From positions 44,723 to 108,722 of the forward strand of contig JABSQV010000003.1 in assembly GCA_013215565.1 (NCBI GenBank): a stretch of DNA of 64,000 nt, in the 5' to 3' direction. Every line of letters begins with the position of its first letter. Within the stretch, counting starts at the first letter, position 1. Origin of the DNA: Myxococcales bacterium. GTDB lineage: Bacteria > Myxococcota_A > UBA9160 > SZUA-336. Position numbers and translations under genes: made by a program. The notes under the pieces were generated by a model. It ran no database searches, was not told where the DNA came from, and was given only the letters and a program-made list of their open reading frames with translations. Below, in pieces: positions 1,229 through 24,690 of the stretch.

Positions 1229-3086
1229 GAAGCCCTCCCTGAGTGCTCGGAGTCCCCGCCAAGAACGCGTCCACGACCCGTCGGGCGATCGGCGCGGCGA
1301 CCGCCGAGCCTGAGCCTCCGTGCTCGACGAGCACGGCCACCAGGATCCGGGGCCGTTCGGCAGGTACGTAGGTCACGAACCACGCGTGATCCTGCAGGGC
1401 CTCGGGCATCTCGTCGGGATCCAGGCCCTCGCTCACCGAGAGTGCCACGACCTGGGCGGTGCCCGTCTTGGCGGCCGCATCCAGGCCGTGCGCGAGCCTT
1501 CGCATGCGCCAGCCGGTTCCATGCTCGTCGTGCACGACGCCCCGAAGCGCCGCGCGCAGCGTCGAGAGGCTCGAGCGGGAGACGGGCACCCGGCCGAGGG
1601 TGTCGGTGCCCCAGCTTCGAAGCACGTTCCCCTGCGGGTCCTCGACCTGTTGCACCACGAACGGACGCAGCAGCGCGCCGCCGTTCGCGATCGCTGCGTA
1701 GCTCGTGGCAAGCTGTATCGGCGTCCACAGGTTGAAGCCCTGTCCGATTGCGATCGACAGCGTCTCGCCCCCCATCCAGGGCTCGTCGAAGCGTCGCTGC
1801 TTCCAGTCCGCCGTCGGGACCAGGCCCGCGGACTCGGGCAGGAATTCGATTCCGGTCTTGCGGCCCAGACCGAGGGCCCGGGCGTAGTGGGCGAGCCGGT
1901 CGACCCCGAGTTTCGCCCCCAGGGTGTAGAAGAACACGTCGCACGACTCGACGAGCGCGCGGTGGAGGTCGACTTCGCCGTGCCCCTCCTCCTTCCAACA
2001 GCGGTAGCGACGCCGGCCGAAGCGCATCGATCCACTGCAGTGAACGCGTAGATCGGGGACCAGCTTGCCGTCCTCGATCGCCGCCAGCGCGGTCACGACC
2101 TTGTAGGTGGATCCCGGCGGGTACTGTCCCTGCAGCGCGCGATTCTGGAGCGGCTTGCGCGGATCGCGCGTCAGCCTCTGCCAGCTCTCGAGCGGGATCC
2201 CGAGCGCGAATTCGTTCGGGTTGGGCGCCGGCCGGCTGGCCAGAACCAGTACCTCGCCCGTCTGCGGATCGAGCGCCACCACGGCTCCGCTGCGTCCGGT
2301 CTCGTCCAGGGCTCGCTCGGCCACGCGCTGCAGCCGGCCGTCGAGCGTCAACCGCACGTTGTTCCCCGGCCGGGGCTCGACCGCACCGAGCAGCTCGAGC
2401 TCGCGGCCGTGGGCGTCGACCAGGACGCTGCGTCCACCGGGCTGGCCGCGCAGATCGGCGTCGAGCCAGGCCTCGATGCCGGACCGCCCCACGATGTCTC
2501 CCGCCCGGTAGCCGACAGACTTGAGGCTCTCGAGCTGCTCGGGCGCGACCTCGCGCAGCGATCCCAACAGGTGGGCGGCGCTGTCCTGCGCCAGGTAGGA
2601 CCGCGCTGGGCCCACCTGGGTCAGCACACCGCGCAGGGCCCAGAGCTGGCCCTCCACCCGGGCGAGCGCATCGCGGTCCAGGTCACGCACCGCCCGGATC
2701 GTCTGAAAGCGCGTACGGCCCCGCGGATTCCCGACCCGCTCCCGTACCAGGGCTGGATCCCGCCGGGTCAGTTGTGCGATCCGATCCAACGTCCCCGGGA
2801 GGCCGCTCAGCTCGTGCGGAATCACGAGCACGTCGAATGCCGGCCGCGAGTCGACCAGAACTTCTCCCCAGCGGTCCAGGATCATCCCCCGGGGTCCCAG
2901 GTGTCGGTGGTTGCGTACGCTGTTTCGGTTCGCCGAGTCCCGATGCGCGTCTCCCTGTACGAGCTGTAGATCGAAGAGCCGCACAAACAGCAGCAGCCAG
3001 ACCAGCAGCACGCCGAAGGTCGCGCCGAAGATGCGCCGCTCGAGCCCGGGTTCGGAGCTGACGTCCGAGACCTGGCCCAGCCTCAC
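1191..3086 (-). CDS. mrdA: Penicillin-binding protein 2
   Basis: TM anchor, PBP dimerisation domain and transpeptidase motifs (PPGSTYKVVTALAA, AAKTGTAQ); overlaps rodA. Confidence 0.93.
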   Translation of the reverse strand: MRLGQVSDVSSEPGLERRIFGATFGVLLVWLLLFVRLFDLQLVQGDAHRDSANRNSVRNHRHLGPRGMILDRWGEVLVDSRPAFDVLVIPHELSGLPGTLDRIAQLTRRDPALVRERVGNPRGRTRFQTIRAVRDLDRDALARVEGQLWALRGVLTQVGPARSYLAQDSAAHLLGSLREVAPEQLESLKSVGYRAGDIVGRSGIEAWLDADLRGQPGGRSVLVDAHGRELELLGAVEPRPGNNVRLTLDGRLQRVAERALDETGRSGAVVALDPQTGEVLVLASRPAPNPNEFALGIPLESWQRLTRDPRKPLQNRALQGQYPPGSTYKVVTALAAIEDGKLVPDLRVHCSGSMRFGRRRYRCWKEEGHGEVDLHRALVESCDVFFYTLGAKLGVDRLAHYARALGLGRKTGIEFLPESAGLVPTADWKQRRFDEPWMGGETLSIAIGQGFNLWTPIQLATSYAAIANGGALLRPFVVQQVEDPQGNVLRSWGTDTLGRVPVSRSSLSTLRAALRGVVHDEHGTGWRMRRLAHGLDAAAKTGTAQVVALSVSEGLDPDEMPEALQDHAWFVTYVPAERPRILVAVLVEHGGSGSAVAAPIARRVVDAFLAGTPSTQGGLHARHRPPAHSAL

Positions 3087-3613
3087 AGCGTGCCGGATCC
3101 GCTAAGAGCTGTCGGGGCGAGGCCCGGCACCTCTTCGTCGCCATCCAGCCGCTTGAACAGGCGATAGAGCGGCGCGGCGACGGCGGCCGTCAGGATGACG
3201 CTCCCGGGCAGACGGATCGCAACTTCCGACCAGGGCAGCAGCAGATCGGGCTGTGCCAGGCGGAGAACCTGCCCCAGCAGCAGGGTGTCGACGACCACGT
3301 AGACGGCTACGTAGACCACCCAGGGCCATGGCCCTCGCAGGTTGAGTCCCCGATCCGTCACGTGCGTGACCAGACAGGCCGTCGCTCGCAGCAGCGCGTA
3401 GAGCCCGATCGGCGCACCCGAAAGCTCGTCGAGCCCGTAGCCGAATGCGAACGCGATCAGCAGCGATTCGATCGCGCGCGCGCGGAACCCGAGCGCCAGC
3501 GCGAAGACCAGCAACAGATCCGGGCGGAACGCGTAAGGCAACACCGACGCCAGCAACTGCTGCAGCAACAGCAGGGCGAGCCCGAGCCCGATCAAGCGCA
3601 TCCGGACACTCAA
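3083..3613 (-). CDS. mreD: Rod shape-determining protein MreD
   Basis: Hydrophobic 176 aa protein between mreC and mrdA. Confidence 0.85.
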   Translation of the reverse strand: MSVRMRLIGLGLALLLLQQLLASVLPYAFRPDLLLVFALALGFRARAIESLLIAFAFGYGLDELSGAPIGLYALLRATACLVTHVTDRGLNLRGPWPWVVYVAVYVVVDTLLLGQVLRLAQPDLLLPWSEVAIRLPGSVILTAAVAAPLYRLFKRLDGDEEVPGLAPTALSGSGTL

Positions 3614-20846: not shown

Positions 20847-22801
<1,955 letters not shown>

Positions 22802-22920: not shown

Positions 22921-23020
22921 CGGCGACCCGGGCGCTAGCCCACGGATCCGGGCGCTAGCCCACGGATCGGGGCCCTAGCCCACGGATCGGGGCCCTAGCC
23001 CACGGATCGGGGCCCTAGCC
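22921..23020. repeat. 20-bp tandem repeat (about 4 full units plus a degenerate unit)
   Basis: CACGGATCGGGGCCCTAGCC three times identical (22961-23020), one variant copy (22941-22960) and a degenerate copy (22921-22940). Confidence 0.95.
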
Positions 23021-23227
23021 CACGCTTTCCCGAGCGCGCTGGATGTCGGCGTCCATGATGGTCTTGCGCCGCTCCCTCTCCGCGACCGCACCCGCTTCCC
23101 GCGCCAGTCGACCGATGTACTCCTCAGCCGCCTGGACGGCCAGGCCCATCGCCGAGCCCGAAATCCGGAGCCCACCCCCGTGTTGTTGAATCAAACGCTT
23201 GACCGCTGCTCCTGGAAGGTCTGCCAT
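23015..23227 (-). CDS. Archaeal-type histone-fold protein (single histone fold, 70 aa)
   Basis: MADLPGAAVKRLIQQHGGGLRISGSAMGLAVQAAEEYIGRLAREAGAVAERERRKTIMDADIQRARESVG; LP..AV.R+I, R+S..A, AEEY, RKTI..ADI..A histone pattern; GGGGGAGC RBS. Confidence 0.85.
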   Translation of the reverse strand: MADLPGAAVKRLIQQHGGGLRISGSAMGLAVQAAEEYIGRLAREAGAVAERERRKTIMDADIQRARESVG

Positions 23228-23395
23228 GCTCCCCCCGCGCGCCTCTCCGGGCGCTTCTGGATCGAGCGTAGGCCTAGGCGCCAGCAGGGTCAACGCTCCC
23301 GGACCCGGATTCCGGTTCCAGCAGGAAGGCGCGGGAGAGCGAACCGACCTCGCGCCGCTCGAGCTCGACCGCCATCGCGTAGGCCGAAGGCTCGA

Positions 23396-23502
23396 TCAGC
23401 GGGCGCGGACCTCGTACGGGGTGCCGGTGAGGCCCTGAAGACAGAGCACGACCGGACCCGCGCCCGCGACCGGCTCGAGACGAGACGGAGCCTCGTCGGG
23501 CG
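23396..23502 (-). pseudogene. Probable remnant of an alpha/beta-hydrolase N-terminus
   Basis: Directly after the larC stop: [39 protein letters not shown](H)GLTGTPYEVR is a typical hydrolase beta-strand/oxyanion segment; no full ORF follows. Confidence 0.4.
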
Positions 23503-24690
23503 TTAGGGGCCGAGGTCCTCGGCCGCTCGCTCCGCCGCGCGGTAGACCTCTCGAAGCGGCGCACCCGCGCGGCGGGCCGCTCGCGCACACGACTCGTACT
23601 CGGGGGCGACCACGCGGCGACCGTCTGGCGGCGTCACCCACTTGACCGTGATGCGGCCAAAGCGGGTGTCGACCCGCCGGACCTCGCGCTCGAGCACGAG
23701 TCGCGGGGTCTCGTAGTAGCGAAGCCCGATCGCGCTCGAGTGGAGCAGGGTCTGGGCCGCGAGCCGCTCCCGGTCTGCGGGACGACAGAGCACGCGAAGC
23801 AGGTGGCCGGGGCGGCCCTTCTTCATCAAGAGCGGCGAGAGTGAAACGTCGAGGGCGCCGGCCTCGAGCAGCCGTTCCAGCACGTAGGGCACGTGCTCGG
23901 GATTCATGTCGTCCAGATTGCTCTCGAGCACCGTGATCACGTCTCCGGCGAGCCGCCCGGCGCGCGCTCCCAGCACCGCGCGCAGCACGTTGGGGAGTGG
24001 CCCCTCGCGCGCGTCCCCGGCCCCGAAGCCCTGAGCCTCGGGAACCAGTGCCGGCATCGGGCCGAAGCTCCGGCCGAGCACCGCGAGCAGGGCTGCGCCC
24101 GTGGGCGTCACGGTCTCCCACTCGATTCCGGCCGGATAGGTCGGGATGCCCCGGAGCAGTTCGATGGTCGCCGGGGCCGGCACCGGCAGGATGCCGTGCG
24201 CGGTCTTGACCTGCCCGTGACCGGCCGCAACCGGCGAGACCGAAATCTCGTCCAACGCGAGATGCTCGACGGCCGCCGAGACCCCGACGATGTCGCCCAG
24301 CGCGTCGATCGCTCCCACCTCGTGGAAGTGAACCTCGTCCGGATCCAGGCCGTGGACCCGGGCCTCGGCCAGCGCGAGCCGCTCGAACACGGTCTCCGCC
24401 CGTTCGCGAACCGCGGCCGGGAGCCGCGCCCGCTTGAGGAGTTTTCGAATCTCGCGATAGCGGCGCTCCCGGGAACTGCGCGCCGGCCCCGAAAAGCTGA
24501 CGTAGCGCGCCTCTACCGCACCCCGCTTTACGCGCGAGACCCGCATGCGGATTCCGTCCACCCCGAGCCCACGCACGCCTTCCCGGACGACGCGGGCCGG
24601 AACGCCGAGATCGATCAGCGCCCCCAGAAGCATGTTCCCGCTCGCCCCCGAGAAGCAATCGAGGTGCAGCAGACGCGAGGCCTCAGTCAC
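23503..24690 (-). CDS. larC: Nickel pincer cofactor biosynthesis protein LarC
   Basis: [51 protein letters not shown]. Confidence 0.93.

Follow-up and report, generated by a model that had tools for sequence, protein, structure and literature searches.

We find that the 70 amino acid product of a small gene in the 64,000-nucleotide stretch of bacterial DNA analyzed here (the window) is, by profile match and predicted structure, a true histone-fold protein. Comparison of its aligned relatives leads us to file it as a histone variant in which a fold of nucleosomal length and a DNA-binding face of the HMf type are combined with a dimer–dimer face resembling that of HBb, because it departs from HMf at the tetramer interface and from bacterial dimers and face-to-face histones in helix length. 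Our preferred reading, to which we give a probability of roughly 0.6, is that it is a homodimeric, non-specific DNA-bending accessory nucleoid protein that acts beside HU/IHF, was likely present in the class ancestor, and was lost in one family.

The gene and its predicted fold

An original prediction made from the nucleotide sequence had proposed a 70 amino acid reading frame with a good ribosome-binding site, nearly colinear with archaeal HMf-type histones. Translation of the minus strand of 23018–23227 reproduces that reading frame exactly, with its TAG stop at 23015–23017 (Table 1); translation and family search of the plus strand of 23015–23227 gave no family match. The ribosome-binding site is also borne out, and AG-rich boxes of the Shine-Dalgarno kind are found 5' of the homologous ATG in most relatives. 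The start Met, which is common to nearly all relatives in the alignment, supports a gene start at 23227. The protein has a net charge of about +2 (HMfB: +3) and is the only PF00808 match in its host genome (3.80 Mb, 91% complete, 1.7% contaminated). Overlapping the 3' end and stop of the gene is a tandem array (22930–23024) in which a 20-bp unit is repeated 4.8 times; most units copy the gene's last bases together with the stop (CGTGGGCTAG).

Table 1. Features of the histone locus, in window coordinates
Feature	Positions	Strand	Basis
groEL, convergent neighbor, conserved in the class	21182–22801	(+)	neighbor calls, relatives' loci
Histone gene, 70 amino acids plus TAG stop	23015–23227	(-)	translation, Pfam, homologues
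Full-length alpha3 (predicted), residues 59–69	23021–23053	(-)	AlphaFold2 model
Loop-2 RKT motif and RD clamp, R54...D61	23045–23068	(-)	invariant columns
Alpha2 (predicted), residues 24–51; 28 residues, nucleosomal length	23075–23158	(-)	model, spacing comparison
Codon of R21, loop 1, "sprocket" arginine (HMfB R19), invariant	23165–23167	(-)	column counts
Alpha1 (predicted), residues 6–16, with invariant K10 and R11 (R11 = HMfB R10)	23180–23212	(-)	AlphaFold2, column counts
Shine-Dalgarno-like GGGGGGAG	23229–23236	(-)	one base before ATG; similar boxes at this position in relatives
larC, same-strand upstream neighbor, conserved in the class	23503–24690	(-)	neighbor calls, relatives' loci

With hmmscan, the protein matches PF00808 (CBFD_NFYB_HMF) at 46 bits, well over the cut-off of 21.4 (E=6.5e-12), and PF00125 (core histones) at 43.9 bits against a cut-off of 26.4. 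On the PF00808 scale HMfB scores 81.4 bits and HBb 23.7 bits, and all 45 carriers among the relatives exceed the cut-off. The NCBIfam model NF043032 (archaea_histone) gives 42.9 bits, below its curated cut-off of 50; it is matched at E <= 0.01 by all 45 aligned members. An AlphaFold2 monomer, built from the 45-sequence alignment, has helices at residues 6–16, 24–51 and 59–69 (mean pLDDT 94.1, pTM 0.76), giving a predicted alpha2 of 28 residues and alpha3 of 11. This helix pattern is that of the histone fold and superposes on HMfA (Foldseek TM 0.86/0.88, rmsd 1.5, 34% identity); the best PDB matches are NF-YB (several chains), HMfA and core histones. We use TM-scores here because Foldseek E-values, only about 5e-3, carry no information for a helical chain this short. 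Neither outcome that would have refuted the original prediction was seen: the histone profiles hit well above cut-off, and the model is the histone fold at high confidence. The colinearity with HMf-type histones is ungapped through alpha2 and alpha3, with loop 1 one residue longer, and the description of the protein as tail-less is apt, since it ends with alpha3.

Helix length, DNA contacts and the dimer–dimer interface

According to published surveys, only archaea have nucleosomal histones, those with a full-length fold. A short alpha2 is held to be diagnostic of bacterial singlets, in which the sprocket arginine is not conserved (Hocher et al., PMC10627809), and in alpha3 histones and the bacterial dimer (HBb type) alpha2 is shortened by 4–5 residues and alpha3 has 3–4 residues (PMC11390915). 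Model and alignments suggest that alpha2 and alpha3 have nucleosomal (full) length here. All 41 aligned class members have a spacing of 31 residues from the loop-1 Ser to the Arg of RKT, as do 4/4 planctomycete relatives and 8/8 archaeal sequences; HBb and the FtF-like 9f2c have 27. Profile alignments against HPhA and HmvA open no gap in alpha2, whereas HBb against HmvA leaves a gap of four residues. Both the helix length and the arginine conflict with the survey statements on bacterial histones; the original prediction had overlooked this fold length, which the surveys deny for bacteria.

Among the residues invariant in 41/41 members are P5, A7, K10, R11, R21, A42, R54, K55, T56, M58 and D61. 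They include the equivalents of HMfB R10 (R11), R19 (R21), R52 (R54), K53 (K55), T54 (T56) and D59 (D61). In HMfB, R10 and R19 anchor the protein in the DNA minor groove, and the R52–D59 bridge clamps the fold (PMC6136690). The N-terminal motif is N-A-V-V-K-R, in place of the conserved Ser-Lys motif of the HBb type, which has no sprocket arginine (PMC10627809).

The dimer–dimer interface of HMfB consists of L46, H49, D59 and L62, with G16 as the stacking residue (Henneman et al., PMC6136690). Column counts over the 41 members show that, of these four, only D59 is kept: L46 is replaced by S48 in 29 members, H49 by A51 in 27, and L62 by K/R64 in 29. G16 is retained as G17 in 37/41. At the three replaced positions the window's own protein carries V48, R51 and R64. 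By these counts the surface for archaeal histone stacking appears to be lost, and because the HMf-type interface is not conserved, a point the original prediction had also overlooked, HMf-like stacking should not be assumed. In published experiments, histones without His49 formed no stable tetramers, and the HBb triple mutant A48H, S45F, I61L behaved more like an archaeal histone (PMC10627809).

Genomic site, distribution and history

The usual order in the class is groEL > < histone - larC - larB. Of 41 loci, 37 have larC as the adjacent gene on the histone's strand, 33 have a convergent groEL, and 30 have both; many of the deviating loci are contig ends. Between 61 and 979 bp separate the histone gene from larC. 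In one family (f4), the groEL/larC/larB/cheA block is intact without the histone, and we found no histone remnants at the empty sites. The neighbors named in the original prediction, groESL and larC, were correctly identified, and the context it had singled out as new is indeed conserved, but it says little about function because the block persists in relatives without the histone. Two genomes (L066, L070) have thiL instead of larC beside the histone gene. The gap between histone and larC in the window (23228–23506, minus strand) holds a remnant of an alpha/beta hydrolase (carboxylesterase-like) gene, of which only about 34 residues match a ~260-aa ORF at the same place in L032.

A profile search found exactly one copy in 45 of the 80 relatives sampled, the gene being missing from all 26 sampled f4 genomes and from nine others; in one of these nine, G009, the apparent absence is a gene cut by a contig end. 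In an even draw of 379 genomes of the phylum there were 50 matches, all in the window's class. This class is presumably GTDB UBA9160, listed in the literature under Myxococcota; in a scan of named genomes, the matches came from MAGs called Deltaproteobacteria or Myxococcota, including isolate UBA9160 (DOUU01000491.1, identical with our contig G065:C491), which belongs to the window's class. The median dN/dS between species is 0.22 (487 pairs with dS<1.5), and by this measure the gene is under purifying selection. In a tree of larC and larB rooted with other members of the phylum, the window's family is the first branch and f4 falls among the carriers (moderate support). From this branching, the ancestor of the class probably had the gene, with later loss in f4, and its consistent loss from that whole family indicates that the histone is dispensable there. 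In a tree of the histones themselves (about 70 columns), the class groups together (0.90) and with planctomycete sequences (0.83), with no placement among the archaeal histones, of which eight were included.

Full-length histones also occur in Planctomycetota (L110, L112, L114, L115 and L176; 5/392 genomes sampled), possibly through transfer between phyla. A 175-kb viral contig in IMG/VR (2860317346_000001, our L177) carries at ~2674–3303 a 209-aa ORF that may be a phage histone: it has a histone fold of full length, which shares 40% identity with the query, and a long acidic N-terminal extension. A phage origin of the class gene was considered and rejected: deposited phages gave no match, and this IMG/VR contig supplied the one relative. 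With HMfB as the query, no relatives were found among viral contigs.

Proposed function and comparison with known histones

In the reading that we prefer, two chains would cross through alpha2 to make a head-to-tail homodimer, whose paired L1–L2 loops (R21, K55, T56) and paired alpha1 helices (K10, R11) would grip successive minor grooves, so that the dimer would bend roughly 30 bp of DNA with no sequence preference. Since the dimer–dimer residues are not of the archaeal nucleosomal class, DNA bending by dimers, or else weak stacking, is the likeliest mode of action; for bending by a dimer, HBb of Bdellovibrio is the precedent (PMC11317129). Dimerization, DNA binding, bending, abundance and a role in the nucleoid are properties that we infer. 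The modest net charge, of only about +2, and the loss of the gene from f4 weigh against this reading. There are two HU/IHF genes in the window's genome and in most relatives, and the family is found in 79 of the 80 relatives, with or without the histone. Replacement of HU/IHF by the histone was rejected, as the two types occur side by side and the number of HU/IHF copies does not follow the presence of the histone.

It is doubtful that the protein is a true nucleosomal histone, whose dimers would join end to end via alpha2 and alpha3 and wrap DNA in the manner of a hypernucleosome. The full-length helices that build this interface in archaea are there, D61 and the minor-groove arginines are invariant, G17 (equivalent to G16, which close stacking needs) is nearly so, and the R51 and V48 of the window's own protein, instead of A51 and S48, make a salt-bridged interface conceivable. 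Three of the four defining residues (L46, H49, L62) are lost, however, position 64 is mostly K or R, the longer loop 1 differs from that of HMf, and the tetramer results for histones without His49 (PMC10627809) also speak against wrapping. We think it just as improbable that the whole class wraps DNA into multimers through a new dimer–dimer interface, for example one based on R51/D61 or on K64; if true, these would be bacteria with archaeal-style chromatin. A histone-fold dimer can also act as a transcription factor (NF-Y type), and a sequence- or locus-specific regulator built on such a dimer, rather than a global nucleoid protein, would fit with the coverage of NF-YB by PF00808, the several NF-YB chains among the best Foldseek matches and the dispensability of the gene in one family. 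Such a role is unlikely for a protein without an extra domain, tail or insertion for specific contacts, and whose conserved residues are the non-specific minor-groove set.

The identity of up to 43% to the archaeal histones compared might suggest that the gene is an archaeal contaminant or was acquired recently from archaea, but this is extremely improbable: identity to class relatives is 54–80%, the SD-like boxes and the presence of carriers on the first branch of the larC/larB tree speak against it, and the gene occupies the same syntenic site, with bacterial genes around it, in tens of independent assemblies, which refutes contamination. A much older transfer, into the ancestor of the class, may have occurred. 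That the gene works with its neighbors, the chaperonin or the lactate-racemase cofactor genes, is suggested by its adjacency to larC and groEL in most loci; we judge the link weak and very unlikely to be real, because genomes that lack the histone keep the block intact, and the spacing to larC varies widely.

In this ancient, vertically kept bacterial lineage, a full-length fold and the DNA-contact residues of archaeal histones occur without their stacking interface, a natural separation of the length of the fold from the ability to multimerize. Bacterial dimer histones and archaeal chromatin can thereby be linked in a way open to testing, which bears on the origin of bacterial histones as truncated derivatives, as transfers or as something older. 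We found no description of these proteins in the main texts of the open-access literature, although earlier surveys may list the sequences without comment.

HMfA and HMfB of Methanothermus fervidus share with the protein the lengths of alpha2 and alpha3, R10, R19, RKT, the RD clamp, the loop-1 Gly and the lack of tails; they differ in overall sequence (34–35% identity), in L46, H49 and L62, in a loop 1 shorter by one residue, and in their host. Archaeal HmvA (PDB 8bdk), which we take to be of the DNA-bridging MJ1647 type, has a similar LPxAxVKR start and a full-length alpha2 (38% identity), but its 96 residues include a C-terminal extension. The Planctomycetota full-length histones have 42–50% identity, the same alpha2 spacing, and the LPNA-KR and RKT-MDxDI motifs (four aligned); no groEL/larC neighbors were found for them, they lack the extra loop-1 residue, and they have Q for E35. 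Published surveys count Myxococcota_A and Planctomycetota as phyla with "bacterial dimers", a group that might take in some of these sequences despite their different helix lengths. Face-to-face histones (HLp of Leptospira perolatii, HTkC of Thermococcus) share the histone fold and an RxTxxxxD motif; theirs have truncated alpha2 and alpha3 and conserved Arg/Asn at -6/-2 from the RKT Arg (PMC11390915), where the class has mostly S48 and D52, with a full alpha3. HBb (Bd0055) of Bdellovibrio bacteriovorus is likewise bacterial, with RKT, the RD clamp, and Ser and Ala where HMfB has L46 and H49, and many class members resemble it in the stretch SAxADxRKT[IV]M. Yet at 29% identity its alpha2 is four residues shorter, its alpha3 is a single turn, and it is without the sprocket arginine that is invariant here.
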